From Mesoterricola silvestris (GTDB lineage Bacteria; Acidobacteriota; Holophagae; Holophagales; Holophagaceae), in contig NZ_AP027080.1 of assembly GCF_030295405.1 (NCBI RefSeq), positions 2,294,001-2,358,000 on the forward strand: a stretch of DNA of 64,000 bases. Reading direction: 5' to 3'. Positions 4,481-32,174 of this stretch are shown here, in pieces. The notes beneath the pieces were generated by a model. That model did not search any database. It had not been told where the DNA came from and saw nothing but the letters and a program-made list of their open reading frames with translations. The translations under genes were made by a program, and so were the position numbers. Position 1 is the first letter of the stretch; the number at the start of each line of letters is the position of its first letter.

Positions 4481-4552
4481 TATTCTGGAGCTTCACCAAG
4501 GCCATGCCGTAAAACGGGTGCCGTGCCCCAGGGCACGCCCCAGGAGATGGCC

Positions 4553-4711
4553 ATGAAACCCCGACTTGTCCTCCGCAAGGAAACCCTTCACCTTCTCGCC
4601 TCCCCATCGCGCAGGGACGGTGCGTTGCTAGCCGGATCGCCCGGCAACAAGACTGGAGCCCATGACGCCACCGCCGCCAGCATCACGACCATCTGGACCA
4701 CGCCTTGGTGA
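4553..4711 (+). CDS. Candidate class I lanthipeptide-type precursor peptide without cysteine
   Basis: A 52-residue peptide. It starts MKPRLVLRKETLHLL, which resembles the LxLxKETLxxL leader of class I lanthipeptide precursors. A basic/glycine linker follows (SPSRRDGALLAGSPG). It ends in a Thr/Ser/Trp-rich tail, ATAASITTIWTTPW. AGGAG at 4542-4546 lies 6 bases before the ATG, an excellent ribosome site that decides the start over an upstream in-frame ATG at 4523. The tail holds several Ser/Thr but no Cys anywhere, so lanthionine rings are impossible without another thiol donor. It is divergent from lanB, and its last 50 bases overlap the start of the kinase gene. It could instead be a regulatory leader peptide of that kinase. 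The precursor role is inference. Confidence 0.6.
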   Translation: MKPRLVLRKETLHLLASPSRRDGALLAGSPGNKTGAHDATAASITTIWTTPW

Positions 4712-5768
4712 GAGGGATCCGTTCCACCCCGCCCCGAAAGGAAAGCTGGGGGAGCTCCACCTCAAGGGGTGGGTGCTCCTGTGCGTCTCCCTGCTCTTCA
4801 CGGCGGTGGCCCTCCGGGCCTACCACCGGCTCGGCGTGGCGGGCAATCCCTGGATCCTGGGATCGGCCGCGTTGCTGCCCGCGTTCCATCTGGCGACCAT
4901 CGTCCTGGCGGTGCCCATGGCCTGGCGGATCCGGGCGAGGGGCTGGCCCGTCCTCGTCTTCGCCCAGAGGCTGGTGGTGGCCCTCGCCCTCTCCGAGGCC
5001 GCCTGCGCCCTCATCGTGCTCCTGGACCTGTGGGTGCGGGGCAGGGCGGGAATGCAGACCCCGAACGCCGCGGGGGTCATGCTGTCCTATCTCTTCGTCG
5101 TGGCGCCGGCCATGACGGCCGCGGGAGGCCTCGTGGCCGCCAGAGCCAATGCAATGGATGAAAAGGAAGCCATGGTCGCAGAAGCGAACATCGCCCGGAC
5201 GCGGCTGCTCCAGAGCCAGCTCCACCCCCACGTGCTTTTCAATGCCCTCAATGGCCTGGCGGAGCTCATCCACAAGGATCCGCCCACCGCCGAGCAGAGC
5301 GTCAAGCACCTGGCCGATCTGCTCCGCAGGATCCTCCGGGCCTCGGAAACGCCGACCTTCTCCCTGGGCGAGGAACGGGCCCTGGTGGAGGATTACTTGT
5401 TCATCGAAGGGCTGCGCCTGGGCCTTCGGCTGCGCCTCCAGTGGGACTGGGATGCCAGCCTGGACGGCCAGCAGGTTCCGCCCCTGCTCATCCAGCCCCT
5501 GGTGGAGAACGCCATCAAGCACGGCATCGCCCCCAACCGGGGCGGCGGCGAGCTGCTGGTGCGGGTGGGGCGGGACGGCCGGGACCTGATCCTGGAAGTG
5601 TGGAACACCGGCGCGGCGTACGAGGCCCGGCCGGGGTCGGGCATCGGCCTGAGGAACCTGGAAGCCCGTCTGGCGTTGCATTTCGGCCTGGACACGGCCT
5701 TCAGCATCCAGCCGGACAAGGGCGGCACCCTGGCCTCCATTCGCTTGCCGGGCGTCTTGCTACACTGA
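4662..5768 (+). CDS. LytS-type membrane sensor histidine kinase
   Basis: A 368-residue kinase of the His_kinase/LytS class, which pairs with LytTR regulators. About four membrane helices lie at residues 37-53, 65-88, 98-122 and 138-160. The phospho-acceptor block LQSQLHPHVLFNALNGL follows (residues 184-200, family form PHFLFN, likely His190). The C-terminal ATPase has PLVENAIKHGI (N box) and GSGIGLRNL (G box). There is no PAS or HAMP domain, so sensing is probably by the membrane bundle, as in peptide-pheromone kinases. The ATG at 4662, with GGAG just before it, overlaps the precursor ORF. The regulator gene starts 4 bases after the stop. The context suggests that the LanB product or a related peptide is the signal; that is inference. 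Confidence 0.9.
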   Translation: MTPPPPASRPSGPRLGERDPFHPAPKGKLGELHLKGWVLLCVSLLFTAVALRAYHRLGVAGNPWILGSAALLPAFHLATIVLAVPMAWRIRARGWPVLVFAQRLVVALALSEAACALIVLLDLWVRGRAGMQTPNAAGVMLSYLFVVAPAMTAAGGLVAARANAMDEKEAMVAEANIARTRLLQSQLHPHVLFNALNGLAELIHKDPPTAEQSVKHLADLLRRILRASETPTFSLGEERALVEDYLFIEGLRLGLRLRLQWDWDASLDGQQVPPLLIQPLVENAIKHGIAPNRGGGELLVRVGRDGRDLILEVWNTGAAYEARPGSGIGLRNLEARLALHFGLDTAFSIQPDKGGTLASIRLPGVLLH

Positions 5769-5772
5769 GGGC

Positions 5773-6513
5773 ATGGACCGCCTGAACGTCGTCATAGCGG
5801 ATGATGAACCGCTCGCCCTGGAGCGCTTGGCCCGCCTGCTGAACGAGGCGGACTGCCAGGTGGTCGCTTCCCTGGAGGACGGACCCTCGCTCCTGGAGTG
5901 GGTGGCCGCCAACGGGGACACCAAGGTGGATGTGCTCTTCCTGGACATCCAGATGCCCGGCCTCAACGGGCTGGAGGTTCTGGCCGAACTCAAGCGCCCG
6001 CCTCTCACCGTCTTCGTGACCGCCCACGCCGACTACGCCATCCAGGCCTTCGAAGCCGCCGCGGTGGACTACCTCCTGAAGCCCGTGTACGAGGACCGCC
6101 TGGCCCGCACCCTCCAGCGGGTGCGGGAGCGCAAGGTGCACCGCCTCACCACCGCCGAATGGCACGCCATGCTCCCCCCCCTGGAACGGGTGCCCGTCCT
6201 GGCGGGCTTCGGCACCATCCTGCTGGACCTGAAGTTCATCACCCACTTCGAATTCGCGGACGACAAGGTGTGGGCCCACGCCCTCACCCGGCGCCACGAG
6301 ACCACCTGGGGGAGCCTGCGGGAGGTGGAGGAGACCTTCCCCGCCGCCGGCATGGTCCGCATCCAGCGCAACCTCCTCCTGCGGCCCGAGGCCGTCATCG
6401 GGGTGAGGGAACTGATGCGGGGGCGCCTGGAAGTGCGCCTGGCCAAGCACACCGAACTGATCGTCAGCCGCACCATGGCGAAGGTGCTCCGGGCACGGCT
6501 TTCCATGGATTGA
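5773..6513 (+). CDS. LytTR-family response regulator
   Basis: A 246-residue cytoplasmic response regulator. The receiver domain (1-120) has the acidic pair DDE at 10-12, the phospho-acceptor Asp58 in FLDIQMPG, Thr83 and Lys103 in LLKP. The C-terminal LytTR DNA-binding domain (about 140-244) shows FITHFEFADDKVWAHALT, then VRIQRNLLLRPEAVIGV, then VSRTMAKVLRARL. It follows its kinase by 4 bases. The operator at 4420-4480 carries repeats spaced 21 bp, as LytTR proteins prefer, so its likely targets are lanB and its own operon. Target assignment is inferred; the domain call is firm. Confidence 0.93.
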   Translation: MDRLNVVIADDEPLALERLARLLNEADCQVVASLEDGPSLLEWVAANGDTKVDVLFLDIQMPGLNGLEVLAELKRPPLTVFVTAHADYAIQAFEAAAVDYLLKPVYEDRLARTLQRVRERKVHRLTTAEWHAMLPPLERVPVLAGFGTILLDLKFITHFEFADDKVWAHALTRRHETTWGSLREVEETFPAAGMVRIQRNLLLRPEAVIGVRELMRGRLEVRLAKHTELIVSRTMAKVLRARLSMD

Positions 6514-6558
6514 CCGGGGGGCCGGCATCCAGGATCGGCCCCCCCCGCGCGGGCCGTG

Positions 6559-6584
6559 CGACTATTAACTAGACCTACTAGTCG
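6559..6584. promoter_or_regulatory. Inverted repeat upstream of the PNPOx-like gene
   Basis: CGACTA (6559-6564) and TAGTCG (6579-6584) are perfect 6-bp arms around a 14-bp spacer, which itself contains CTAG twice. It is a short AT-rich island in GC-rich DNA, 33 bases before the ATG at 6617. It could be an operator overlapping the promoter of that gene. No regulator is suggested by the sequence alone. Confidence 0.35.
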
Positions 6585-6616
6585 TCTATTCGTATCCCTC
6601 CCGGAGACCCCCGCCC

Positions 6617-7150
6617 ATGCGTACCGATGTCCGCTTCCCCCTTCGCGCCGCCCTCGCGGCCCTCCTCCTGGCCCTGCCGGCCCTGGCCGGAGCGCCGGCC
6701 AAGCCCCCGACCCGGGAGGAGACCCTGGCCGCCGCCCGGGAGCTCATGACCTCCTGCCACTATGTGGCCCTGGCCACCGTGGCGGCCGACGGCGGCCCCC
6801 AGGTGCGGACCATGAATCCCTTCCCCCCCGAGGCGGACATGTCCGTGTGGATGGCCACCAACGGCACCACCCGCAAGGTGGCCGAGTTGCGGGCGAACCC
6901 CCGGGTGACGCTCTTCTACGGCGACCTGGCCCGGGCCGAGGGCTACGTGGCCCTGCGGGGCCGGGCCCTCCTGGTCACCGACCCGGCCGAGATCAAGAAG
7001 CGCCACCGGGCCTACTGGGACCAGGCCTTCCCCGGCGGCAAGGACCTGGTCCTGATCCACGTGGTGCCTGAGCGCCTGGAGATCATCCATTACAAGTCCA
7101 ACCTAAACGGAGATCCGAAAGGCTGGGCGGTACCGGCGGTGGTGTTTTAG
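6617..7150 (+). CDS. Secreted pyridoxamine 5'-phosphate oxidase-fold protein
   Basis: A 177-residue protein with a signal peptide (MRTDVRFPLRAALAALLLALPALAGAPA, cleavage near residue 25). A split-barrel flavin-binding domain of the PNPOx/general stress 26 type follows: HYVALATVAADGGPQVRTM, then MSVWMATNGTTRKVAEL, then NPRVTLFYGD, then GRALLVTDPAEIKKRH. Family members bind FMN, F420 or haem, or lack a cofactor; which applies here cannot be read from sequence. Periplasmic export is unusual for this fold. It stands alone between the LytTR regulator and a repeat region. Function is unknown beyond the fold. Confidence 0.8.
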   Translation: MRTDVRFPLRAALAALLLALPALAGAPAKPPTREETLAAARELMTSCHYVALATVAADGGPQVRTMNPFPPEADMSVWMATNGTTRKVAELRANPRVTLFYGDLARAEGYVALRGRALLVTDPAEIKKRHRAYWDQAFPGGKDLVLIHVVPERLEIIHYKSNLNGDPKGWAVPAVVF

Positions 7151-19440: not shown

Positions 19441-21390
19441 CTACCGTCCCGGGACCTTCGGCCTCCCCAGCATCCGGTAGAGCGTGCTCCGGTGCAGCCC
19501 CAGGGCCTTGGCGGCGGCGGTCATGTTGCCCTTGTTGGCGGCGATGGCCTGCTCAACGGCCTGGCGTGTCAGGGCGTCCAGGTGCAGGGGGCCCACGGCG
19601 GGAGGGGGCGGGGCCGGCGCGGGGGCTGAGGGCGGGCGGCGGTACTCGGGCGGCAGGTCCTCCACGCCGAGGAGGGTGCCGTCATCGGCCAGGGCCACGA
19701 GGGTGCGCAGGAGGTTCGCCAGCTCCCGCAGGTTGCCCGGCCAGGTGTGGGCCTGCAGCACCGCCCGGGCCTCGGGGGCGAGGTCGATGCCGCGCTCGCC
19801 GGCGCCGCTGCCCTGCAGCAGGGTGTCCAGCAGCACCGGGAAATCCGGGCGTTCCCGCAGGGGGGTGAGGCGCACGCAGAAGTGGTGGAGCCGGTAGAAC
19901 AGGTCCTGGCGCATGCGTCCGGCGGCCACTTCGGCCTCCAGGTTCCGGTGGGTGGCGCACACGGGCACGAAGTCCACCACGGCGGCCCGGCTTCCCCCCA
20001 GGGGCGCCACTTCCTTGCTCTGCAGCACCCGCAGCAGCCGGGCCTGCATGGACAGGGGCATATCGCCGATCTCGTCCAGGAAGAGGATGCCGCCGTCGGC
20101 GTCCTTGATCTTGCCGGGGCTGCCCTTCTGGCGGGCGCCCGTGAAGGCGCCGTCCTCGTAGCCGAACAGTTCGGATTCGATGAGGCCTTCGGGAATGGCC
20201 GCACAGTTGAGCATCACCAGGTTCCGGTGGCCCCGCTTGCTGGCGGCGTGGAGGGCCCGGGTGAACAGTTCCTTGCCCGTGCCGGTCTCGCCCAGGATCA
20301 TCACGGGCACGCCGGCGTTCACGGCCCGCACCGCGAGGTTGAGCTGCTCGCGGCTGGCGGCGTCCCAGTAGATCCCCGCGGGGCCACGCCGGCGCTCCGG
20401 ATCGGGGTCGGCGGCGCTCCGGCCCCGCGGGACCCTCCGGGCGGAATCGCCGGGGACGGCCCGCCCGCGGTCCGGTTCGGGCACGGCGACGGCGGGGGGC
20501 TTCTGGCTGAAGCTGCGGGCGAAGACCTTCCGGCCGTCGCGCATGACCACCGCCACCACGAGGCCCTCGGGCATGGCCCCCGCGAAGAGGTGCGCGTAGC
20601 GCACGTGCCGCAGCGATCCCCACTCCAGGCCCAGGAGCGTGATGGCGACGCGGTTGGCGGCCACCAGGACGTCCTCTTCGAACAGGAGGATGGCTTCCTG
20701 CCAGGTGCCCAGCAGGGCGGGGTTGGCGTGGAGGGTGACCATGCGGCGGCCGCGCAGGTCCAGGGAGAACCAGCGGTGCTCGATCTGGGCCACGGCCATC
20801 TGGATGAGGCCCCGGGCGTAGCCCGGCGCCAGGCGCGGATCGCTGGAGATGTCCAGCACCCCGGCCATCTCGCCCGTGGGGGTGAGCACGGGCACCGCGC
20901 TGCAGGTGAGGATCTCGTTGGATTGGCAGAAATGCTGGCAGCCGCGCACCAGCACCGAGCGGTGCTCCGTGAGGGCCGTGCCGATGGCGTTGGTGCCGCG
21001 GGCCTGCTCGCTCCAGTTCACGCCGGGCTGGAGGGCGACCTGCTCGGCCTTCTGGAGGAAATCCAGATTGCCCCGCCGCTCCAGCACCATGCCGTCGGCG
21101 TCGGTGAGGAGCACCAGGCCCGGCGTGTCCTCCATGCATTCGCCCAGGGCGTCCAGTTCGGTGGCGGCCAGGCCCAGCAGCGTTTCGCTGCGTTCCCGGG
21201 CCAGGCGGAACTCCCGCTGCATCACCGGTTCCGAGATCTCGGGCCGCTCGTGGGGAACGCCCAGGACCGCGCAGCGCTGCCAGGAACTCACCAGCGGTCC
21301 CGGCAGCCAGGGCGGTACCTCCCCGCGCTCCAGGAAGAGGAAGCGGGCCCTGCGGATGGCGGCGCTGTCGGTGGATCCAGAGGTGGGCAT
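19441..21390 (-). CDS. Sigma-54-dependent activator, AcoR-like (GAF-AAA+-Fis)
   Basis: A 649-residue enhancer-binding protein that remodels sigma-54 RNA polymerase. A GAF-type sensor domain occupies roughly 80-200 (VNWSEQARGTNAIGTALTE is typical of AcoR relatives), followed by a PAS-like stretch to about 290. The AAA+ domain has Walker A GETGTGKE (367-374), the sigma-54 loop GAFTGA (414-419) and Walker B GGILFLDEIGD. A Fis-type helix-turn-helix ends the protein (NKGNMTAAAKALGLHRSTLYRML). It diverges from the aldehyde oxidoreductase operon and sits between two TGTCGC arrays, each with a sigma-54 promoter, so it very likely controls both. The effector may be an aldehyde, alcohol or related metabolite. 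Confidence 0.93.
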   Translation of the reverse strand: MPTSGSTDSAAIRRARFLFLERGEVPPWLPGPLVSSWQRCAVLGVPHERPEISEPVMQREFRLARERSETLLGLAATELDALGECMEDTPGLVLLTDADGMVLERRGNLDFLQKAEQVALQPGVNWSEQARGTNAIGTALTEHRSVLVRGCQHFCQSNEILTCSAVPVLTPTGEMAGVLDISSDPRLAPGYARGLIQMAVAQIEHRWFSLDLRGRRMVTLHANPALLGTWQEAILLFEEDVLVAANRVAITLLGLEWGSLRHVRYAHLFAGAMPEGLVVAVVMRDGRKVFARSFSQKPPAVAVPEPDRGRAVPGDSARRVPRGRSAADPDPERRRGPAGIYWDAASREQLNLAVRAVNAGVPVMILGETGTGKELFTRALHAASKRGHRNLVMLNCAAIPEGLIESELFGYEDGAFTGARQKGSPGKIKDADGGILFLDEIGDMPLSMQARLLRVLQSKEVAPLGGSRAAVVDFVPVCATHRNLEAEVAAGRMRQDLFYRLHHFCVRLTPLRERPDFPVLLDTLLQGSGAGERGIDLAPEARAVLQAHTWPGNLRELANLLRTLVALADDGTLLGVEDLPPEYRRPPSAPAPAPPPPAVGPLHLDALTRQAVEQAIAANKGNMTAAAKALGLHRSTLYRMLGRPKVPGR

Positions 21391-21500: not shown

Positions 21501-21540
21501 TGTCGCAGGGGTGTCGCCCGGAGTGTCGCCCTTTGCGACA
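21501..21540. promoter_or_regulatory. TGTCGC enhancer array of the aldehyde oxidoreductase operon
   Basis: TGTCGC at 21501, 21512 and 21524, the last forming a perfect dyad TGTCGC-CCTTT-GCGACA (21524-21540). Spacings of 11 and 12 bp and the N5 dyad equal those of the array at 17957-18013. It lies about 150 bp before the sigma-54 promoter at 21690, a normal distance for an enhancer. The rest of the 21391-21806 gap holds no gene. Confidence 0.75.
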
Positions 21541-21689: not shown

Positions 21690-21706
21690 TTGGCACAGTT
21701 AGTGCT
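21690..21706 (+). promoter_or_regulatory. Sigma-54 promoter of the aldehyde oxidoreductase-hydrogenase operon
   Basis: TTGGCACAGTTAGTGCT contains a perfect -24 box TGGCAC (21691-21696) and a -12 box GTGCT (21702-21706), with GG and GC ten bases apart. It precedes the ferredoxin ATG at 21807 by about 100 bases. The gene for a sigma-54 activator is divergent, which strongly supports function. Confidence 0.8.
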
Positions 21707-21806
21707 GTATGAAAAGGAAATGGAATAGAACCCGAACCGGGTTCCGTACGACCAACCTGCCAACGCGCCAGGCGGACCTCGTCTGGTCAGAAAACGGGAG
21801 TGACTC

Positions 21807-22283
21807 ATGACAAAACTGCTCATGATCCATCCGGACAAATGCACCGGTTGCAAGAACTGCTCGCTTGCCTGTGTGTTCGGGCATGAGGGCCAGTTCCGCC
21901 CCGCCGGCACGCGGGTCCACGTGTACACCTGGGAGCGCGAGGGCTTCTCCGTTCCCATGATGTGCCAGCAGTGCGACGACGCCTCCTGCATGAAGGTGTG
22001 TCCCACCGGCGCCCTGCACCGGCCCCAGGGGGGCGACCTGGTGGTGTACGAGAAGGACAAGTGCATCGGCTGCCGCATGTGCACCATGGCGTGCCCCTTC
22101 GGGAACGCGGTGTACGACGGGGCCACCGGCGCCATCCTCAAGTGCGACACCTGCGGCGGCAAGCCGGAGTGCGTGCGCATGTGCCCCAGCGGCGCCCTGG
22201 AATACATCGACGACAACATCTCCACGCGATCCCGCAAGAAGTCATTCGCCGCCAAGTTCAAAGCGGCCATCCAGGAGGGCTGA
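21807..22283 (+). CDS. Four-cluster ferredoxin subunit (AorA/CooF/HycB-like)
   Basis: A 158-residue electron-transfer protein. Four cysteine groups can each complete [4Fe-4S] clusters: [35 protein letters not shown] and [14 protein letters not shown]. This is the layout of AorA of aldehyde oxidoreductases, CooF of CO dehydrogenase and HycB of formate hydrogenlyase. It is the first gene of the operon, and AOR follows after 2 bases. Expected role: carry electrons from the tungsten enzyme to the membrane hydrogenase. GGAG lies a few bases before the ATG. The assignment to AOR rather than another partner rests on adjacency. Confidence 0.92.
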
Positions 22284-22285
22284 AC

Positions 22286-24091
22286 ATGTACGGATGGGTC
22301 GGCACGGTGCTACGCGTGAACCTCACGACGGGCGCAATCACCCGGGAAGCCACCAACCCCAAGGACGCCGCGCTCTTCATCGGCGCCCGGGGCCTGGGCA
22401 CGAAGATCATGACGGACGAGGTGGATCCCAAGGTGGATCCCCTTTCCCCGGAGAACAAGCTCATCTTCGCGCCGGGGCCCTTCTCGGGCACCTTCGCGCC
22501 TTCGGGCGGGCGCTACAACGTCGTCACCAAGGGCCCCCTCACCGGGACCATCGCCGCCTCCAATTCCGGCGGCTCCTTCGGCCCCGAGCTGAAGTACGCG
22601 GGCTACGATCTGGTCATCTTCGAAGGCCGGGCCCCCAAGCCCGTCTACCTGTGGATCAAGGATGACGTGGTGGAGCTGCGGGACGCCACCCACCTGTGGG
22701 GCAAGCAGGTGCCCGAAACCACCGAGGCCCTGCGGGCGGAGACGGACGAGGAGGCGAAGGTCGCCTGCATCGGCCCCGCCGGGGAAAAGCTGGTGCTCTT
22801 CGCGGCGATCATGAACGAGATGCACCGGGCCGCGGGCCGCACCGGCGTCGGGGCGGTCATGGGCTCCAAGAACCTCAAGGCCGTGGTGGTGGTGGGCATG
22901 GGCGCCGTGAAGGTGGCCGATCCCAAGGGCTTCATGGCCGCCGTGGACAAGGCCCGGGAAGGCGTGCGCCTGCACCCGGTGGGCGGCGCGGGCCTCAAGG
23001 CCTACGGCACCGACGTGCTGGTGAACATCCTCAACGAGACCGGCGCGCTGCCCACCCGCAACTTCGACGACGGCCACTTCCCCACCGCCAATAAGGTGGG
23101 CGGCGAGACCCTCAGCGATTCGGTGCTGGTGCGGGCCAAGGGCTGCTATTCCTGCGTCATCAGCTGCGGACGGGTCACCAAGGTCTCCAACCCCAAGTAC
23201 CGGGGCGAGGGGGAAGGCCCCGAGTACGAGGCGGCCTGGGGCTTCGGCCCGGACTGCGGCATCGATGACATGGAGGCCGTCACCAAGGCCAATTTCCTGT
23301 GCAACGAGTACGGCATGGATTCCATCACCGTGGGCGCCACCATCGCCTGCGCCATGGACCTCTTCAAGGCGGGCCACCTGACCCTCAAGGACACCGGGGG
23401 CCTGGATCTGAGCTTCGGCAACGGGGCCATGATGGTGGAACTCACCCGCATGATGGGCGAGCGGGAGGGCATCGGCGACAAGCTGGCCCTGGGCTCGTAC
23501 CGCTTCGCGGAGGCCTTCGGCCACCCCGAATTCTCCATGACCGTGAAGAAGCAGGAGATGCCCGCCTACGATCCCCGGGGCATCCAGGGCATCGGCCTCA
23601 ACTACGCCACCAACAACCGGGGCGGCTGCCACGTGCGGGGCTACACCATCGCGGTGGAGGTGCTGGGCAACGGCGCCAAGCTGGATCCCCGGGTCACCGC
23701 GGAGAAGCCCTTCTGGGTCAAGCTCTTCCAGGACCTCACGGCGGCCATCGATTCCTCGGGGGCCTGCCTTTTCGGGACCTTCGGCATGGGCGGCGACGAT
23801 TTCGCGGCCATGCTCTCCACCATCACCGGCGTGCCCTACACCACGGAGGACTACCTCCGCGCCGGCGAGCGGGTCTGGAACCTGGAGCGCCAGTGGAACC
23901 TCAAGGCGGGCTTCACCCATTCGGACGACAACCTGCCGGAACGCCTCCTCAAATCCCCCATCAAGACCGGTCCCGCCAAGGGCGAAGTGAACCGCCTGGG
24001 CGAAATGCTGCCCGAGTACTACAAGCTGAGGGGCTGGGATGACCAGGGGGTGCCCACCCAGGCCAAGCTCCAGGAACTGTCGCTCGTCTGA
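22286..24091 (+). CDS. Tungsten-type aldehyde:ferredoxin oxidoreductase (AOR)
   Basis: A 601-residue enzyme that oxidises aldehydes to acids with a bis-pterin tungsten (or molybdenum) cofactor. The N-terminal cofactor domain has [13 protein letters not shown] and [17 protein letters not shown]. Iron-sulfur ligands Cys287, Cys290, Cys294 (CYSCVISC) and Cys494 (SGACLFG) are spaced as the known ligands 288/291/295/494 of Pyrococcus furiosus AOR. Glu313 and His449 fall at or next to that enzyme's catalytic Glu313/His448. This favours a true AOR over the related benzoyl-CoA reductase BamB. Gene order ferredoxin-AOR-MoaD matches aorA-aorB-aorD of Aromatoleum, but the FAD subunit is absent and a hydrogenase follows instead. 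Confidence 0.92.
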
Positions 24092-24363
24092 TGCACATCA
24101 AGTACTTCGCCGACGTCCGGCGCCTCTCGGGGTGTTTCGAGGAGACCTGGACCCTTCCCGCCGCAACGCTCGGCGAGCTCGTGAATGGGCTCGCCGGGCT
24201 GCACGGCCAGGCCTTCGGGGAGCGGGTCCAGCCCGAAGGCAAGCTCAGCAGCACCATCATCGTCCTGGTCAACGGCCAGAACATCGTGCACCTGGATGGC
24301 CTGGCCACCCGCCTCGACCCCGGGGACACCGTCGCCTTTTTCCCCATGGTCGCCGGCGGCTGA
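24091..24363 (+). CDS. MoaD/ThiS-like sulfur carrier (AorD-like)
   Basis: A 90-residue ubiquitin-fold protein ending in the required di-glycine (FFPMVAGG), which is thiocarboxylated to donate sulfur during molybdopterin synthesis. Family blocks are [14 protein letters not shown] at the start and VLVNGQNI followed by LDPGDTVAFFP. Its ATG overlaps the AOR stop by one base (TGATG). A dedicated MoaD-like protein next to AOR is known from Aromatoleum (aorD) and from archaeal tungsten enzymes. It presumably serves the tungsten pterin of the upstream AOR. Confidence 0.9.
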   Translation: MHIKYFADVRRLSGCFEETWTLPAATLGELVNGLAGLHGQAFGERVQPEGKLSSTIIVLVNGQNIVHLDGLATRLDPGDTVAFFPMVAGG

Positions 24364-24388
24364 CCGCCCCTCGCCCGGAGAACGCGCC

Positions 24389-27289
24389 TTGAACGATTCG
24401 CTCCTGATCCTCTTCCCCCTGGCCGCGCTCCTGGGCGGCATCCTCCTGCAGGGCCTGTTGGCCGGCGTCCTCTCCCCCCGGGGGAAGGGACGGCTGGCCT
24501 TCACGGCCGTGCTGGCGGCCCTGGCCGGGGTGGGGCTGGCCCTGGGCCGGGGGCGGGTGCTGGAGGCCTCCTTCGGCGCCTGGGACGGGCCCATCCGCCT
24601 GGCCTACCACGTGGACGGCCTCTCGCTCCTCTTCGCCCTCATGGGCACGGGGATCGGCGCCGCGGTGCTGCTGTACGCCGTGTCCTACATGGAGGAGGAG
24701 CGGGCCAACACCCGGTTCTACAGCCTGGTGCTGCTCTTCATCGCGGGGCTGGTGCACCTGGTGTACACCGCCGACCTCTTCCTGCTGTACGTGAGCTGGG
24801 AGGTGGTGGGCCTCTGCTCCTTCCTCCTGGTGGGCTTCTGGTACCGCAAGGAGGAGGCCGCGTACGGGGCGCGCAAGGTGCTCACCATGACCCACCTGGC
24901 CGGCTACGGCCTGCTGGCGGCGGTGATCCTGCTCTTCGCCCGCACCGGGTCCACCCTCTGGACGGACCCCCGGGTGCAGGGGGCCTTCACCACGGGGCTC
25001 TTCCTGCTGGTGCTGGGGGCCTGCCTGGCCAAGTCCGTGCAGTTCCCCCTGCACACCTGGATCCCCGACGCCATGGCCGCGCCCACGCCGGTGAGCGCGC
25101 TGCTCCACGCCGCCTGCTACGTGAAGGCGGGCGTGTACCTCATCGCCCGGCTCCACGCCTTCGGGCCCTGGCCGGTGGCCTGGGGCGCGGTACTGGCCTG
25201 GCTGGGGGCCGCCACCATCGTGGTTGGCGCCCTCCTGGCGCTGTCCCAGCGGGACCTGAAGCGCCTGCTGGCCTACTCCACGGTGAGCCAGATCGGCTAC
25301 ATGATGCTGGGGCTGGGCCTGGGCACGCCCCTGGCCGTGGCCGCCGGACTCCTGCACTGCCTGAACCACGGCCTCTTCAAGGGCGGCCTGTTCCTGTGCG
25401 CGGGGGCCGTGCAGCACGCCACGGGCACCCGGGACATGGAGCGCCTGGGCGGCCTGGGCAAGCGCATGCCCCGGACCCTGGCCCTGTGGCTGGTGGTGGC
25501 CGGCAGCATCGCCGGCGTGCCGCTGCTCAACGGGTTCGTGAGCAAGTGGCTCATCTACAACGCCGCCCTGGAGGCGGGGCAGCCCCTGCTGGCCCTGGTG
25601 CCCTGGGTGGGCAGCATCCTCACCGTGTTCATGTTCCTGAAGGCCACCACGGGCGTCTTCCTGGGGCCCGAAACCCCCGACGCGGCCCACGCCCACGAAG
25701 CCTCGGGCGGCATGCTGGCAGGCATCGGCGTCCTGGCCGCGGGGTGCGTGGTGCTGGGCACCGCGCCCCAGCTGGCCATGCGGTTCCTCATCAATCCCCT
25801 GCTGCCGGCCCTGGGCTTCGCGCCCCTCACGGGCGTGGGCTGGTTCGGGCTGGCCACGGGGCAGGGGAGCTGGTACGCCTCCGCCGGCTTCCTGCTGGGC
25901 CTGGTGGCCATGGCCTTCGGGCTGCTTGTGTTCAGCCTGGCCCGCCCCGCCCGGGGCGTCGTGGCCGCGGGAGCCTCCGGCGTCTTCACCGGCGGGGAGC
26001 CCACCGATGGGCGCCTGGGGGCGGGGGACTTCGCCCGCATCCTGGCGGACGCCCTGGGGCCCTTCTACCGCGGGGTGGACGTGGACCGCTTCTACCTGCT
26101 GCTCTGGCGCGCCCTGAACCGGGTGGGCGCGGGGCTGGACGCCCTGTCCCGGGGCGCCGAGGGGCGGGCCCCGGTCCTCCTGGCGGCCTTCTGCGTGGCC
26201 CTGGGCCTGGCCGGGGGCTTCGTGCCCAGCGGGCCGGTGCGGGAACTGCCGGTGCCCCCCTTCCTGGCGGCGGCCGTGGCCGTGGCCTGGCTGGGGCTGG
26301 CCGCCGCGGGGCGGGGCCGGGTGCCGTTCCTGCTGGCGGGTTTCCTGGCCCTGGCGGGCATGGTGCTGGCCCACGGACTGGTCCGGGGGGTGCTGCTGGA
26401 GGCCGCGGCGGTGGCCGCCCTCCTGGCCCTCACCCGGGACCAGGGTTCCCGGGCCTACCTGGCGGCGGTGCTGCTTTCCGCCGTGGGCACCCTGGGCGGC
26501 GCCCTGGCCGCGGAGCACGGGCTGCCCCGGCTGGCCATGGCCCTCCTGCTGCCGGGCCTGGGCATCAAGATCGGCCTGGTGCCCCTCTCCCTGTGGCTGA
26601 CCCGGGTGGCGGAACGGGCCCCCGTCCTGGTCACGGGCCTCATCATCGCCGTGGTGGACGTGGCCGCGCTCACGGAACTGCTGGCCGAACCCGGGCGCTT
26701 CGCCGGCCCGGCCTGGGTGGCCTTCGGCCTCCTGTCGGCCGTGGCCGGGGCGGTGCTGGCCCTGGGCACGGACAACCTCAAGCGCTTCCTCGCCTACTCC
26801 ACCGTCGTGGACATGGGCCTGCTCACCCTGGGCGTCGCCCTGGGGGCGGGGGCGCTGCCCGGGGTGGTGCTGGGGGCGGCGGTGCACGCCCTGGCCAAGG
26901 CGCTGCTGTTCGTGGCGGCCTCCGTGCCCGAGGCCGCGGGCGCCTCCCTGGCGGGGCCCCGGGGGCTGGCGGCCCGGCATCCCCTGGCCGCGGCGGGCTT
27001 CCTGGTGGGCGCCCTGTCGGTGGTGGGGGTGCCGCCCACCCTGGGCTTCGGGGCCCACTGGCGGCTCTTCGGGGCGGCGGCGGGGCATCCCTGGCTGCTG
27101 GCCGTTCTCCTGGGGGTGACCATGCTTTCCGTGGCGGTGTACGCCCGGGCCGTCACCCGCTTCTGGTGGGGCGGGGAGGCCACGGAACCCTCCATGGCCT
27201 GCCCTCCGGTGCCCCGAATCGTGATCCTCGTCCTGGCGGGCCTCCTGCTCGTCCTGGGCCTCTGCGGGAGGATGCCATGGGCGTTCTAG
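24389..27289 (+). CDS. Double-length antiporter-like membrane subunit (CooM-like, NuoL + NuoN/M modules)
   Basis: A 966-residue ion-translocating membrane subunit. Module one (about 1-520) is NuoL/HycC-like: LYVSWEVVGLCSFLLVGFW, HTWIPDAMAAPTPVSALLHA, LKRLLAYSTVSQIGYMMLG, NHGLFKGGLFLCAGA. A second antiporter-like half (about 640-966) repeats the pattern: KIGLVPLSLWLTRVAERAP, NLKRFLAYSTVVDMGLLTLG, HALAKALLFVAA, GALSVVGVPPTLGFGAHW. This is the plan of CooM in CO-linked hydrogenases rather than single-module EchA. I choose a TTG start at 24389, as GGAG lies 8 bases upstream and no ATG or GTG is better placed. The next gene overlaps its end by 13 bases. Confidence 0.87.
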   Translation: MNDSLLILFPLAALLGGILLQGLLAGVLSPRGKGRLAFTAVLAALAGVGLALGRGRVLEASFGAWDGPIRLAYHVDGLSLLFALMGTGIGAAVLLYAVSYMEEERANTRFYSLVLLFIAGLVHLVYTADLFLLYVSWEVVGLCSFLLVGFWYRKEEAAYGARKVLTMTHLAGYGLLAAVILLFARTGSTLWTDPRVQGAFTTGLFLLVLGACLAKSVQFPLHTWIPDAMAAPTPVSALLHAACYVKAGVYLIARLHAFGPWPVAWGAVLAWLGAATIVVGALLALSQRDLKRLLAYSTVSQIGYMMLGLGLGTPLAVAAGLLHCLNHGLFKGGLFLCAGAVQHATGTRDMERLGGLGKRMPRTLALWLVVAGSIAGVPLLNGFVSKWLIYNAALEAGQPLLALVPWVGSILTVFMFLKATTGVFLGPETPDAAHAHEASGGMLAGIGVLAAGCVVLGTAPQLAMRFLINPLLPALGFAPLTGVGWFGLATGQGSWYASAGFLLGLVAMAFGLLVFSLARPARGVVAAGASGVFTGGEPTDGRLGAGDFARILADALGPFYRGVDVDRFYLLLWRALNRVGAGLDALSRGAEGRAPVLLAAFCVALGLAGGFVPSGPVRELPVPPFLAAAVAVAWLGLAAAGRGRVPFLLAGFLALAGMVLAHGLVRGVLLEAAAVAALLALTRDQGSRAYLAAVLLSAVGTLGGALAAEHGLPRLAMALLLPGLGIKIGLVPLSLWLTRVAERAPVLVTGLIIAVVDVAALTELLAEPGRFAGPAWVAFGLLSAVAGAVLALGTDNLKRFLAYSTVVDMGLLTLGVALGAGALPGVVLGAAVHALAKALLFVAASVPEAAGASLAGPRGLAARHPLAAAGFLVGALSVVGVPPTLGFGAHWRLFGAAAGHPWLLAVLLGVTMLSVAVYARAVTRFWWGGEATEPSMACPPVPRIVILVLAGLLLVLGLCGRMPWAF

Positions 27290-27735
27290 AACCCATTCTG
27301 CTCCGCCTGGTGGACCGGGCCCGGCGCAAATCGGCCTGGCTCTTCCACTTCAACGCCGGCGCCTGCAACGGCTGCGACATCGAGCTGGTGGCCTGCCTCA
27401 CGCCCCGCTATGACGTGGAGCAGCTGGGCATCCGCCTGGAAGGCAGCCCCCGCCACGCGGATATCCTCTGCGTCACGGGCCCGGTCACCCGCACCACCCG
27501 GGAGGCCCTGAGGACCATACACGCCCAGCTCCCGGATCCCAAGGTGGTGGTGGCCATCGGCAGCTGCCCGGCCACGGCCAACGTCTTCGCCGGCAGCCCC
27601 GTCATCGACGGACCGGTGGACCGCATCATCCCCGTGGATCTCTTCATCCCCGGCTGCCCCCCCCGGCCCAACGCCGTCGTCCAGGGCATCGCGGAGGCCA
27701 TCGAGCTCCTGGTGGCCAAGGGGGTGGCCCAATGA
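27277..27735 (+). CDS. Group 4 hydrogenase small subunit (NuoB/CooL/EchC-like)
   Basis: A 152-residue subunit holding the proximal [4Fe-4S] cluster next to the active site. Ligands are visible as Cys30 and Cys33 (ACNGCDIE), Cys97 (GSCPAT) and Cys127 (PGCPPRP). Like other group 4 small subunits it has only this cluster and no export signal, so it faces the cytoplasm. The ATG lies inside the end of the antiporter gene, with GGAGG 4 bases upstream. Translational coupling continues with the NuoH-like gene, whose ATG overlaps its stop (ATGA). Confidence 0.92.
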   Translation: MGVLEPILLRLVDRARRKSAWLFHFNAGACNGCDIELVACLTPRYDVEQLGIRLEGSPRHADILCVTGPVTRTTREALRTIHAQLPDPKVVVAIGSCPATANVFAGSPVIDGPVDRIIPVDLFIPGCPPRPNAVVQGIAEAIELLVAKGVAQ

Positions 27736-28613
27736 CCCGCCTTTTCCTGGCCCTCCTGGTCTTTCCCGGGCTGCTCTACGCCGTGCCCATGGGCTGGCTC
27801 ATGCTGGGCAGCGAACGCAAGGTGGTGGCCCGCCTCCAGGGGCGCGTGGGGCCCCCGCTCACCCAGGGGTTCTACGATTTCGTCAAGCTCCTGGCCAAGG
27901 CCCCCGTGCCCCGGGCCGAGACCTTCCTCCTGACCCTGCTGCCCATCCTGGCGGTGGCCTCCACCCTGGGGGCCCTGGCCCTGCTGCCGGTGGGGGCCGG
28001 GGGCTTCACGGGGGACCTCATCGTCTTCGTGGGGCTGCTGGAGATGGCGCCCCTGTGTTCGGTGCTGGCGGGCTTCGCCTCCCGGTCCGTGTACGGCGAA
28101 GTGGGCGCCACCCGGGAAGCCGTCCTGGGCATCAGCGGGAACGTGCCCTTCCTGGCGGCCCTCCTGGCCCTGGCCTCCGCCGCGGGCAGCCTCCAGCTGG
28201 CCGCCGTGGCCGGGGGCGCCCCCTGGGTGGTGCGGGGTCCCGCCCTCCTGGCCCTGCTGGCCTGCCTCCCCGTGAAGCTGCGCATGAACCCCTTCTCCGT
28301 GGCCAACGCCGAGCAGGAGATCCTCGCCGGGCCCCTCACGGAAATGGACGGACCCCGCCTGGCCCTGTGGGAACTGGCCCACGCCCTGGAATGGGTGGTG
28401 CTGGCCGGCCTGGTGGCCGTGCTGGTGGTCCCGGGCCGGGGCGGGGCCTTCGTCCTGGTGTCCTTCGCGGTGGTGCCCCTGCTGGGCACCCTGGCCGCCG
28501 CCACCGCCCGCTTCAAGATCGACCAGGCCGCCCGCTTCCTCTGGATCTGGGCCGTCCTGGCCGCGGTCCTGGCCTTCTTCGCGGCCATGGCCGTCCGCCA
28601 CGGGAGCCTCTGA
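27732..28613 (+). CDS. NuoH/CooK/EchB-like membrane anchor subunit
   Basis: A 293-residue membrane protein with about eight helices. It connects the hydrogenase arm to the antiporter arm, as in complex I and Hyc/Ech/Coo hydrogenases. Family blocks are MGWLMLGSERKVVARLQGRVGPP (the conserved ERKxxAxxQxRxGP), FVGLLEMAPLCSVLAGFAS and a cytoplasmic loop MNPFSVANAEQEILAGPLTE with the conserved acidic residues thought to take part in ion movement. It overlaps its neighbours by 4 bases upstream and 1 base downstream. Confidence 0.92.
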   Translation: MTRLFLALLVFPGLLYAVPMGWLMLGSERKVVARLQGRVGPPLTQGFYDFVKLLAKAPVPRAETFLLTLLPILAVASTLGALALLPVGAGGFTGDLIVFVGLLEMAPLCSVLAGFASRSVYGEVGATREAVLGISGNVPFLAALLALASAAGSLQLAAVAGGAPWVVRGPALLALLACLPVKLRMNPFSVANAEQEILAGPLTEMDGPRLALWELAHALEWVVLAGLVAVLVVPGRGGAFVLVSFAVVPLLGTLAAATARFKIDQAARFLWIWAVLAAVLAFFAAMAVRHGSL

Positions 28614-29125
28614 TGTTCCACATCCTACGCCGGCTGGCCGGCAACCTCGCCCAGGGCCCCGTCTCCCTTCGCTTCCCCGCGGAGGTGCCGCCCCCGGCGG
28701 GCCTGCGCGGCCTCGTTCGCATCGATCCCGGCCGCTGCCTGGCCTGCGGCATCTGCTCCTACGTGTGCGTGAGCAACGCCATCACCGGCGCCGAGAGCCA
28801 GGGCGCCTACGCCTGGGCCTACGAACCGGGCCGCTGCACCTTCTGCGGCCGCTGCGAGGACCACTGCCCCGGAAGCGCGCTGTCCATGGACCCCCAGGCG
28901 CCCCCCAGCTACACGACCCCCGGGGAACTGGCCCGCACCGCCACGGTGGCCTTCCCGGCCTGTCCCGTCTGCGGCGAACCCAACCCCCACGTCACCGAGG
29001 AATGGATCGGCAAGGCCTTCGGGGCGCCCAACGGGGAGACCCGCGAACTACTCCGCCTGTGCGTGCGCTGCCGCCGCCGGCGCATCGCCCAGGGCATGAA
29101 GCAGCCCCACGGAGGCCAGCCATGA
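28613..29125 (+). CDS. Two-cluster ferredoxin subunit (CooX/NuoI/HycF-like)
   Basis: A 170-residue subunit with two [4Fe-4S] sites: Cys42, 45, 48 and 52 (CLACGICSYVC) and Cys75, 78, 81 and 85 (CTFCGRCEDHC). These pass electrons to the NuoB-like subunit. The C-terminal part has two further CxxC pairs (CPVCGEP and CVRCRRRR), probably a zinc knot, also seen in HycF-type proteins. Its ATG overlaps the NuoH-like stop by one base, and the NuoC-like gene overlaps its end by 4 bases. Confidence 0.92.
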   Translation: MFHILRRLAGNLAQGPVSLRFPAEVPPPAGLRGLVRIDPGRCLACGICSYVCVSNAITGAESQGAYAWAYEPGRCTFCGRCEDHCPGSALSMDPQAPPSYTTPGELARTATVAFPACPVCGEPNPHVTEEWIGKAFGAPNGETRELLRLCVRCRRRRIAQGMKQPHGGQP

Positions 29126-29520
29126 TGACCGAAATCCTGCGGGAACGCTGCGGCGGGGAATGGGTCCGCCGCCTTGACGGCTGGTGGCGCTGCCTGGCCC
29201 TGGAGGAGGTGGTGCCCGCGGCCCGGGCCCTGAAGGAGGGCGGCGCCCGCTTCGCCACGCTCCTGGTGCGCCCGGTGGACGGGGGGCTCCAGGTGTCCTG
29301 GCACTGGGACCTGGGGGGCACCCTGCTGTCCCTGCGCGCCACCGTGGCGGGGGACGCCGTCCTCCCCAGCCTGGGGGACCTCTGGCCCTGCACCGACTGG
29401 GCGGAGCGGGAGGCCCGGGACTACTACGCGGTGAGCTTTTCCGGCCGGGAGACCACCCCGCCCCTGATGCTGCGGGAGGGGGACGCCCCCGGCGTGCTGC
29501 TCCCCGGGAGGAACGCATGA
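29122..29520 (+). CDS. NuoC/CooU/EchD-like hydrogenase subunit
   Basis: A 132-residue soluble subunit of the NuoC family, which holds the large subunit in place. The diagnostic block is TDWAEREARDYYAVSFSG, matching the ERExxDxF motif of NuoC. The N-terminal half (WWRCLALEEVVPAARALKEGGARFATLLV) matches the usual alpha/beta start. GGAGG lies 6 bases before the ATG at 29122; an ATG 3 bases later is a weaker alternative. It ends overlapping the large-subunit ATG. Confidence 0.88.
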   Translation: MMTEILRERCGGEWVRRLDGWWRCLALEEVVPAARALKEGGARFATLLVRPVDGGLQVSWHWDLGGTLLSLRATVAGDAVLPSLGDLWPCTDWAEREARDYYAVSFSGRETTPPLMLREGDAPGVLLPGRNA

Positions 29521-30593
29521 CGTACCGTGTGCCCATCGGCCCCTACCACCTGGCCCTGGAGGAGCCCTACAAGATCGAAGTGGCGTGCGAAGGCGAGAAC
29601 GTCACCGGGGCCCGGCTCACCGTGGGCTACAACTTCCGGGGCATCGAGTGGCTGGCCGAGCACAAGAACATCACCCAGAGCATCGCCCTCATGGAGCGGG
29701 TGTGCGGCATCTGCTCCAATGTCCACTCCATGACCTTCTGCCTGGCCCTGGAGCGCATCGGCGCCCTGGAGGTCCCGGCCCGGGCCCAGCACATCCGGGT
29801 GGTCATGGCCGAACTGGAACGGATCCATTCCCACATCCTGTGGGCCGGGGTGGCCGCGGAGCTCACGGGGTTCCACAGCCTGTTCATGACCTGCTTCCAC
29901 CTGCGGGAGCGGGTGATGGACCTGCTGGAGCGCATCTCCGGCAACCGGGTGAACTATTCCATGAACCGCATCGGGGGCGTGAACCGGGACCTGGTGTGCG
30001 AAGGGGAGGTCCTGGCCGGCATCCGGGAGATCCGCGCCGGGCTCCTGGAGACCCTGATCCCCATCTTCACCACGGACCGCACCTTGGCCGCCCGGTGCGC
30101 CGGGGTGGGCCGCCTCACCCGGGAGGACGCCCTGGCCTACGGCGCCGTGGGTCCCGTGGCCCGGGCCTCGGGGGTGGACCAGGACCTGCGCCGGGACGCC
30201 CCGTACCTGGTGTACGGCCAGCTGGACTTCCCCGTGCCCGTGGGGGCCAACGGGGATGTGTTCGACCGGGTGGTGGTGCGGGCCCAGGAGCTCCTGGCCA
30301 GCTGCTCGCTGGTGGAGCAGGCCATCGAGCGCATGCCCGCCGGACCCATCCACCAGGGGGACCTGTACGCGGTGGCCCCCGGGGAAGCCGTCATGCGCAT
30401 CGAGGCCCCCCGGGGCGAGGTGTTCTACTACGTGGCCTCCGACGGCACGGACCTCCCCGCGCGGGTGAAGGTGCGCACCCCCACCTTCCTCAACATCCCC
30501 ACCGTGGTGCCCATGCTCACGGGGGCGGCCCTGGCGGACGTCCCCCTCATCCAGGGGTCCATCGACCCCTGCTACTCCTGCACGGACCGGTAG
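29517..30593 (+). CDS. Group 4 [NiFe] hydrogenase large subunit (CooH/EchE-like)
   Basis: A 358-residue catalytic subunit reducing protons to H2 (or the reverse). Both nickel-binding motifs are complete: Cys63 and Cys66 in RVCGICSNVH and Cys352 and Cys355 in DPCYSCTDR. This separates it from NuoD, which lacks them. The protein stops directly after DPCxxCTDR, so it has no C-terminal extension for a maturation protease. CooH is known to lack this tail as well. It is followed after 1 base by hypA. With the upstream subunits it forms a complete CooMKLXUH-type membrane hydrogenase. Confidence 0.94.
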   Translation: MTYRVPIGPYHLALEEPYKIEVACEGENVTGARLTVGYNFRGIEWLAEHKNITQSIALMERVCGICSNVHSMTFCLALERIGALEVPARAQHIRVVMAELERIHSHILWAGVAAELTGFHSLFMTCFHLRERVMDLLERISGNRVNYSMNRIGGVNRDLVCEGEVLAGIREIRAGLLETLIPIFTTDRTLAARCAGVGRLTREDALAYGAVGPVARASGVDQDLRRDAPYLVYGQLDFPVPVGANGDVFDRVVVRAQELLASCSLVEQAIERMPAGPIHQGDLYAVAPGEAVMRIEAPRGEVFYYVASDGTDLPARVKVRTPTFLNIPTVVPMLTGAALADVPLIQGSIDPCYSCTDR

Positions 30594-30594
30594 C

Positions 30595-30936
30595 ATGCAC
30601 GAGCTCTCCCTGATGGCCGGGATGCTGGGGATCATCGCCGGCGAGGCCCGGGGCCAGGGCTTCACCCGGGTGTCCCGCATCGTGCTGGAGATCGGCGCCC
30701 TGTCCGGCGTCGAACCCGAGGCCCTGCGCTTCGCCTTCGATGTGAGCGCCCGCGGCACCGTGGCGGAGGGGGCGGAGCTGGAGATCGAAGAGACGGAGGG
30801 GCGGGCGCAATGCGGGGCCTGCGGCCACACGGTGCCCGTGCGCGGCACCTGGGGCGGCTGCCCCGCCTGCGGCACCGACGCCCTGAAGGTCATCGCAGGC
30901 AAGGAAACGCGCGTAAAGTACCTGGACGTCGATTGA
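30595..30936 (+). CDS. hypA: Hydrogenase nickel metallochaperone HypA
   Basis: A 113-residue nickel carrier that loads Ni into [NiFe] hydrogenase. The N-terminal MHELSLM gives the nickel-binding Met1-His2-Glu3 motif. The zinc site is two CxxC pairs, CGACGHTV and CPACGTD. It starts 1 base after the large-subunit stop, so it is dedicated to this complex, as cooHypA-type genes are. No hypB-F genes are in the window; they must lie elsewhere. Confidence 0.95.
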   Translation: MHELSLMAGMLGIIAGEARGQGFTRVSRIVLEIGALSGVEPEALRFAFDVSARGTVAEGAELEIEETEGRAQCGACGHTVPVRGTWGGCPACGTDALKVIAGKETRVKYLDVD

Positions 30937-31190: not shown

Positions 31191-32174
31191 ATGAAGAAGT
31201 CCCTGCTCACCCCCGAGGAAACCGCGGCGCTGATCCGGACGGGGCGCTTCCTGGCCCTGGCCGCCGACGAGGCCGTGCTCCGGGCCCTGCCCCGGGGCAA
31301 CTGGGTCGGCGGCACCACCCCCTACTTCGTGGGGGACGAGGGCGGCCTCATGTCCCGGGAACGGGTGCACGTGGCCGAACTGGCCGAGGCCGGCACCGCC
31401 GCAACCCTCGTGGACTACGACCTGGCGGGCCTGACCGGCATCGCCGGGGACGGCCCCGACAACGGGTTCACCTTCGTCATCATCCCGGCCCTCAGCGCCC
31501 TGCACCAGGCCTACGCCTCGGGCGCCGACGAGTACCCCGGCATGTTCATGACCCCCCTGGTGGGCTGGATCGCCGGGGTGCACCTGGACGATCTGGGCAA
31601 GGTCAGCCCCAAGGTGATCAACGGCCTCACCGGCAAGATCTCCGACGCCATGGCCGTGGCCATGCACGTGCCCCTTCCGCCCCGCCAGCTGGCCATGGTG
31701 CGCATCCTGAACCTCTTCCACCCCGGGGACGGGGATGTGCTGACCTTCCCCGAAGGCGGCTTCACGGTCACGGATTGCTTCGTGAACGGAAAGCCCGCCC
31801 GGTTCGCCGAGTACGTGGAGGCCAACCGCCTGGACCTGGCCCGCCCCCTGGTGGCCGACTACAACGGCGCCCGCATCAACACCTCCTTCCAGGCCGTGGA
31901 GGGCGGCAAGGTGCGCTTCTACGCCCCCGTCTTCACCGGCGTGGAGTACCGCCACGCCGCCCCCGTGGGCGACTACGTCCACGAACTGGAGGCCCTCGCC
32001 GCGGACCTCCACGTGGCCCCGCGCTTCTCCTGCAACTGCATCCTGAACTACCTGTACGGCAAGCTGGAGGGCCGGAGAACCGGGGACCTCACCGGGCCGG
32101 TGACCTTCGGCGAGATCGGGTACCAGCTGCTGAACCAGACCCTCGTGTATCTTGAAGTGGTCAACAAGAATTAG
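31191..32174 (+). CDS. DUF6976-like protein of unknown function
   Basis: A 327-residue cytoplasmic protein without signal or membrane segments. It resembles, from memory, the DUF6976 family seen in anaerobes: ETAALIRTGRFLALAADEAVLRALPRGNWVGGTTPYF near the start, read in pieces, then FVIIPALSALHQAYA and the ending FGEIGYQLLNQTLVYLEVV. No cofactor motif is plain, although FSCNCILNYLYGK has two close cysteines. GGAGG lies before the ATG, and it follows the 72-residue gene by 9 bases. It is probably part of the hydrogenase operon. Its stop overlaps the convergent pepT stop by 4 bases. Confidence 0.7.
   Translation: MKKSLLTPEETAALIRTGRFLALAADEAVLRALPRGNWVGGTTPYFVGDEGGLMSRERVHVAELAEAGTAATLVDYDLAGLTGIAGDGPDNGFTFVIIPALSALHQAYASGADEYPGMFMTPLVGWIAGVHLDDLGKVSPKVINGLTGKISDAMAVAMHVPLPPRQLAMVRILNLFHPGDGDVLTFPEGGFTVTDCFVNGKPARFAEYVEANRLDLARPLVADYNGARINTSFQAVEGGKVRFYAPVFTGVEYRHAAPVGDYVHELEALAADLHVAPRFSCNCILNYLYGKLEGRRTGDLTGPVTFGEIGYQLLNQTLVYLEVVNKN

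Follow-up and report, generated by a model that had tools for sequence, protein, structure and literature searches.

What an aldehyde oxidoreductase (AOR) might do when it is encoded in one operon with a complex I-like, membrane-bound [NiFe] hydrogenase is the question raised by a ten-gene locus of the acidobacterium Mesoterricola silvestris. The locus lies in a stretch of 64,000 nucleotides (nt; positions 2,294,001 to 2,358,000 of contig NZ_AP027080.1; hereafter, the window) that is part of a 4.99 Mb single-contig genome. Our analysis indicates that the operon quite probably specifies an H2-evolving, energy-conserving aldehyde hydrogenlyase, in which AOR and its small subunit (WorS) would be docked on a hydrogenase of the Coo type. 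The ten open reading frames form one plus-strand series (21807-30936), and their Pfam domains are, in order, Fer4 repeats, AFOR_N and AFOR_C, ThiS, Proton_antipo_N/M, Oxidored_q6, NADHdh, Fer4, Complex1_30kDa, Complex1_49kDa with NiFeSe_Hases, and HypA; Pfam and NCBIfam agree in kind with all ten assignments. As the nine junctions range only from -13 to +25 nt (i.e., 2, -1, 25, -13, -4, -1, -4, -4, and 1 nt), the genes constitute a tight operon. The order is that given in an earlier note on this DNA, but the overlap that it described for the whole series is replaced by gaps at three junctions (2, 25, and 1 nt).

The second gene encodes an AOR sensu stricto, as judged from its AFOR N- and C-terminal domains, its Fe-S cysteines (C287, C290, C294, and C494), and its second-shell residues T242, E315, Y428, and H449, equivalent to Thr243, Glu313, Tyr427, and His448 of PfAOR and belonging to the Thr/Glu/Tyr/His set named in two recent accounts (PMC12096430, PMC13328260). 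All eight residues are unchanged in 15 of 15 hydrogenase-linked AORs aligned, and the earlier statement that the enzyme keeps its four Fe-S cysteines and active-site Glu is borne out. The metal of its bis-pterin cofactor is probably tungsten. The first gene, previously called a four-cluster ferredoxin, does encode 16 cysteines for four clusters, all of them unchanged in 14 aligned homologues; by sequence, though, it is a dedicated AOR small subunit (WorS/AorA). More specifically, 9mqx_E, which we take to be the small subunit in the AmWOR1 structure, and AorA (8c0z_C) rank ahead of HycB (7z0s_B) among its Protein Data Bank (PDB) matches, and a CooF- or HycB-like ferredoxin was rejected because the closest relatives are of the WorS/AorA type. 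According to Pfam, neither an FAD subunit (AorC) nor HydABC-like output subunits, which would mark the known Class III and Class IV systems, are among the ten operon genes.

The hydrogenase module contains all six kinds of Coo-type subunits (i.e., antiporter and NuoH-, NuoB-, NuoI-, NuoC-, and NuoD-like proteins, according to Pfam). Thus, the former description as a CooMKLXUH-type hydrogenase stands for the subunit types but not for the gene order, which is M-L-K-X-U-H. In the antiporter gene, the start codon is TTG at 24389, which corrects the earlier note. The large subunit retains all four Ni-ligating cysteines, as had been claimed, in CGIC and a C-terminal CYSC motif, and a complex I relic lacking the Ni site was rejected on that basis. 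Its terminus (...DPCYSCTDR) bears no C-terminal extension, and therefore no maturation protease is expected; CooH is likewise without such an extension. Within the operon we found neither CooF-CooS nor an FdhF-type formate dehydrogenase with HycB, and AOR with WorS stands in that place. Separately, the common group-4 hydrogenases of Acidobacteriota (L059-L073; 45-49% identity) are accompanied by three antiporter-like genes and no AOR, and in some of them CICC or CFSC replaces CYSC at the C-terminal site.

The same gene order was found elsewhere, as the earlier note had proposed to check. Scanning genome contigs with the large subunit as query recovered the block (i.e., four-cluster Fe-S subunit, AOR, antiporter, and hydrogenase, usually with MoaD) in a Holophagaceae metagenome-assembled genome (MAG; L006), Edaphobacter aggregans (L007), a Thermoleophilia MAG (L009), a Chloroflexi MAG (L013), and Ornatilinea apprima (L014). 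Four further genomes with the block (G193, G296, G272, and G364) came from a survey of 396 Acidobacteriota genomes, and plasmid records contributed five Azospirillum loci on five plasmids of four strains (A. lipoferum 4B AZO_p2 and AZO_p4, A. thermophilum, Azospirillum sp. B510, and A. oryzae). Altogether, there are 15 complete loci in four phyla, MoaD being usual but not constant, and one locus split over two contigs (L015, L076) of a peat-bog MAG binned as Hyphomicrobiales. The Azospirillum loci have two antiporter genes in place of one, with hypA on either the upstream or the downstream side, and in L055-L057 MoaD follows the hydrogenase, preceded in L055 by a ThiF-like gene. The system is rare and patchy: it occurs in 5/396 Acidobacteriota and 1/400 Chloroflexota genomes, and in the phylum of L009, a search of 346 genomes matched only L009's own genome. 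In a relative of the same genus (G097), the hydrogenase was not found at the survey threshold. A. lipoferum 4B carries two operon copies (L087, L089), one on each of two plasmids. A Nitrospiraceae hydrogenase of the same clade (L011:1356-2362) has ThiF and MoaD behind it, like L055, before the contig end cuts the locus, which is probably another AOR-linked operon.

Conservation of the block order in four phyla led us to reject chance adjacency of AOR and hydrogenase. It likewise bears on the possibility that the electrons of the hydrogenase are meant to come from elsewhere (CO, formate, or no co-encoded donor) and that AOR is a passenger of the operon. Hydrogenase relatives lacking AOR do exist (L008, L010, L012, and L058); nevertheless, in every complete AOR-linked locus the antiporter gene comes after those for WorS and AOR, whether or not MoaD intervenes, the linked AORs have been kept as a clade, and the window operon contains neither carbon monoxide dehydrogenase (CODH) nor formate dehydrogenase, so that we regard a passenger role as very improbable.

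Linkage to the hydrogenase follows AOR relatedness. In the plasmid collection, the only AORs of at least 60% identity are the five from Azospirillum (68-69%), all five hydrogenase-linked, the rest being about 52% identical or lower. All Acidobacteriota AORs of at least 69% identity are linked, with one exception (L077); an AOR of 66% identity (G203) is accompanied by a pyridine-nucleotide oxidoreductase, as in Class III, and the ones inspected at 55% identity or below are unlinked. The exception (4489-7045) is a second AOR copy in the L006 genome, comprising WorS, AOR (85% identical), and MoaD without a hydrogenase, and it adjoins convergent NuoF/HydB-like and HydC-like genes as well as the same type of sigma54 regulator; in that genome, two different outlets seem to be available to the AOR module. 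The AOR tree places the linked AORs in a single clade (support 95/99) that includes this unlinked duplicate.

The nearest hydrogenases without AOR have either CODH upstream with the hydrogenase gene order unchanged (L008 and L010, the latter with a CooC-like ATPase beside CODH) or no recognisable co-encoded partner (L012, L058). In a large-subunit tree that does not contain CooH of Rhodospirillum rubrum, the window's protein groups with the CODH-linked L008 and L010, AOR-linked L009 is sister to CODH-linked L010 (100/98), and AOR and CODH labels interleave. Consistently, an approximately unbiased (AU) test rejected a single clade of all AOR-linked hydrogenases (p-AU 0.001), and with it a single origin of the AOR-linked hydrogenase. 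Taken together, the CODH-linked relatives and the AU result indicate an exchange of oxidation modules on a common hydrogenase platform, in line with the former proposal of AOR as a substitute for CODH on a hydrogenase of the Coo type. As the tree is unrooted for gain and loss, we make no claim as to which partner came first. Distances between AORs and between large subunits correlate across linked loci (r 0.90; 0.69 for eight representatives, reached in 11/10000 permutations), a correlation that shared ancestry alone could produce.

A candidate contact site for the exchanged modules is a C-terminal cysteine quartet of the NuoI-like subunit (C117, C120, C150, and C153). The quartet is unchanged in 15/15 AOR- or CODH-linked sequences aligned, and it is missing from partnerless three-antiporter relatives and from the Ech-like NuoI of Butyrivibrio. 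The two partnerless loci L012 and L058, i.e., Coo-type hydrogenases without a co-encoded oxidase, are also without it. In formate hydrogenlyase, the equivalent quartet of HycF contacts HycB near FdhF (PMC9474812), and the NuoI-like subunit possesses this HycF-type feature. Its predicted fold (pLDDT 76, pTM 0.59; from an alignment that left out the plasmid sequences) matches HycF (7z0s_F) best and over the full length, with an E-value four orders of magnitude ahead of complex I. We infer that WorS-AOR may dock on the HycF-like C-terminal domain of the NuoI-like subunit.

These data also bear on a second explanation, namely that AOR-WorS is soluble and reduces free ferredoxin, which then feeds a separate, co-expressed, ferredoxin-dependent ion-pumping hydrogenase, giving the same net H2 without a dedicated complex. 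AOR and the membrane-bound hydrogenase (MBH) of Pyrococcus furiosus are thought to work in this way, without a shared operon, and there too electrons from aldehydes can be released as H2 by a group-4 hydrogenase. Two-subunit Class II tungsten-containing oxidoreductases (WORs) are given as ferredoxin-dependent in a recent survey (PMC13328260), and L077 shows that an AOR-WorS pair without a hydrogenase exists. In contrast, the ferredoxin-dependent MbhN aligns to the NuoI-like subunit only as far as the second cluster, the Ech-like Butyrivibrio protein lacks the quartet that all partner-linked NuoI proteins have, a dedicated WorS is present in every complete locus, and CODH- and AOR-linked forms are interleaved on one hydrogenase clade. 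For these reasons we consider the free-ferredoxin explanation unlikely.

Several observations nonetheless weigh against a dedicated hydrogenlyase complex. The docking model is of moderate confidence by the scores given above, and the link between quartet and partner depends on few independent losses, L012 and L058 being sisters that represent one evolutionary event. In other systems, WorS-AOR pairs also have free ferredoxin or NAD modules as partners, and the L077 copy indicates that AOR does not need the hydrogenase. Furthermore, H2 metabolism in the window's genome is redundant, with several [FeFe]-hydrogenase-like matches beside one [NiFe] hydrogenase resembling group 1, so that H2 could arise from aldehyde by another route. 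Lastly, the tungstate-uptake family WtpA had no match in this genome, in which TupA was not searched.

In the hydrogenlyase that we propose, AOR, probably with tungsten, would oxidise an aldehyde with water to the carboxylic acid, and electrons would pass from its [4Fe-4S] cluster through four clusters in WorS, two in the NuoI/CooX-like subunit, and one in the NuoB/CooL-like subunit to the [NiFe] site of the NuoD/CooH-like subunit, where H2 would be released. WorS-AOR would sit on the HycF-like domain of NuoI as HycB-FdhF does in formate hydrogenlyase, with no free ferredoxin taking part, and the NuoH-like and antiporter subunits would move ions outward. The main role would be the disposal of aldehydes derived from alcohols, sugars, and amino acids, with energy conservation once electron acceptors are exhausted. 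Using commonly used potentials from general knowledge, we computed about -32 kJ/mol for conversion of acetaldehyde to acetate and H2 at standard H2 and -55 kJ/mol at 10 Pa, which is enough for ion translocation; the corresponding values for CO are -20 and -43 kJ/mol, and formate yields -3.5 kJ/mol. A comparable role, i.e., survival of facultative anaerobes under acceptor limitation, is documented for CODH with an energy-converting hydrogenase (PMC13077300).

The same reversibility that characterises group-4 hydrogenases and AORs would permit the system to run mainly backwards, with H2 and ion-motive force reducing carboxylic acids to aldehydes and then to alcohols, and AorABC is described as reducing acids with H2 (PMC9295118, PMC12096430). 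This direction would cost about 32 kJ/mol at standard state. Moreover, several hosts (Azospirillum, Edaphobacter) are mainly aerobic, and we know of no acid-to-alcohol fermentation in either; mainly reverse operation thus appears highly unlikely to us.

Genes for metal supply accompany the operon. HypD is present in 13/13 genomes tested, and in L006 the operon is followed by HypF, a HypD gene, and a HypE-like gene. In E. aggregans, one 50.7 kb contig (L139, L140) carries TupA/B with an ABC ATPase, a WtpA-like protein, two MoeA, the operon, ThiF, MoaA, and HypD, E, F, A, and B. TupA (239 bits, below the NCBI 400-bit cut-off) and TupB both score below the NCBI cut-offs, yet no substrate-specific model scores better. 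In a genus regarded as aerobic, this island of maturation and tungstate-uptake genes argues for a W- and Ni-dependent function. A prismane/Hcp protein is encoded on the same contig.

Compared with known systems, CooFS plus CooMKLXUH of R. rubrum and Carboxydothermus shares the six subunit types, a dedicated multi-cluster Fe-S protein with a low-potential oxidase, and the expected ion pumping; here, AOR and WorS replace CODH and CooF, the gene order is changed from cooMKLXUH of R. rubrum, and a GAF-sigma54 activator is found where no CooA-type regulator was seen. Escherichia coli formate hydrogenlyase (FdhF-HycB-HycCDEFG) has in common a pterin oxidase, a four-cluster relay, a HycF-like quartet subunit, the [NiFe] site, and the logic of coupling an oxidation to H2, whereas its oxidase belongs to the DMSO reductase family rather than the AOR (W/Mo) family, and the window operon has separate NuoC and NuoD and a large subunit without C-terminal extension. 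The closest solved relatives of AOR and WorS are the Class IV enzymes AmWOR1/ElWOR1 (WorLSABC; 9mqx), whose output module is HydABC-like (ferredoxin/NAD) instead of a membrane hydrogenase. Likewise, AorA and AorB of Aromatoleum (Class III), a system with known H2-dependent activity, have homologues here, but its FAD/NAD subunit AorC does not.

What would be new here is a hydrogenlyase with a new input module. A 2026 analysis of 4,064 WorL neighbourhoods gives five WOR classes, none of them hydrogenase-linked (PMC13328260), and the AOR section of a 2025 review has no such class (PMC12096430), in agreement with the earlier note, which knew of no described complex of this composition. Our full-text search found no report of the pairing in the open-licence literature, an absence that is not proof. 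We think it reasonably probable that the system represents a sixth tungsten-oxidoreductase class and, after formate and CO, a third kind of hydrogenlyase, i.e., a dedicated complex spread horizontally both to strict anaerobes and to soil and plant bacteria that are mainly aerobic, for aldehyde-driven proton respiration in anoxia. If so, the substrates whose oxidation to H2 involves a complex I-like hydrogenase would include aldehydes besides formate and CO, and aldehydes would give the best free-energy yield of the three; aldehyde detoxification would become energy conservation, and reverse operation could reduce acids to aldehydes with H2. Modular evolution would also become testable: several input modules would be interchangeable on one platform, and the candidate docking site is the small domain with the Cys quartet. 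As A. lipoferum 4B, Azospirillum sp. B510, E. aggregans, and O. apprima are cultured, experiments are possible now.

Table 1. Genes of the window operon and candidate regulatory features (window coordinates)
Feature	Position	Strand	Basis
Divergent GAF-sigma54-Fis activator, probable operon regulator	19441..21390	-	Pfam
Candidate activator site TGTCGC-N5-GCGACA	21524..21540	+	Single case, weak
Candidate sigma-54 -24/-12 element TTGGCACAGTTAGTGCTG	21690..21707	+	Similar elements upstream in L006, L007, L077
WorS/AorA-type four-[4Fe-4S] subunit, proposed electron relay from AOR	21807..22283	+	16 Cys; PDB matches 9mqx_E, 8c0z_C; first gene of conserved block
AOR/WorL, probable tungstopterin aldehyde oxidoreductase large subunit	22286..24091	+	AFOR_N/AFOR_C; PDB matches 9mqx_D, then 1aor
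MoaD/ThiS-like protein (WorX), pterin cofactor synthesis, C-terminal GG	24091..24363	+	ThiS PF02597; NCBIfam MoaD family
CooM-like double antiporter subunit, 966 aa, putative ion translocation	24389..27289	+	Proton_antipo_N/M, two stretches
NuoB/CooL/MbhJ-like small hydrogenase subunit, proximal [4Fe-4S]	27277..27735	+	Oxidored_q6; PDB: MbhJ 6cfw_J best, then HycG
NuoH/CooK-like membrane anchor	27732..28613	+	NADHdh
NuoI/CooX/HycF-like 2x[4Fe-4S] subunit, C-terminal Cys quartet, proposed WorS-AOR docking site	28613..29125	+	Alignment, predicted fold
NuoC/CooU-like subunit	29122..29520	+	Complex1_30kDa
NuoD/CooH-like [NiFe] large subunit	29517..30593	+	Pfam; PDB best matches MbhL, HycE; four Ni ligands
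HypA nickel metallochaperone	30595..30936	+	PF01155; TIGR00100 above cut-off

With respect to regulation, the regulator divergent from the L077 gene set is 66% identical to the activator of the window. Motifs resembling the sigma-54 element are not more frequent across the whole window than expected by chance; we therefore rejected a conserved sigma54 site as proof of regulation and list it as a lead only. Directly downstream of HypA, a DUF6976 protein is encoded (31191-32174), which was not detected in any of the other operon loci that we compared.

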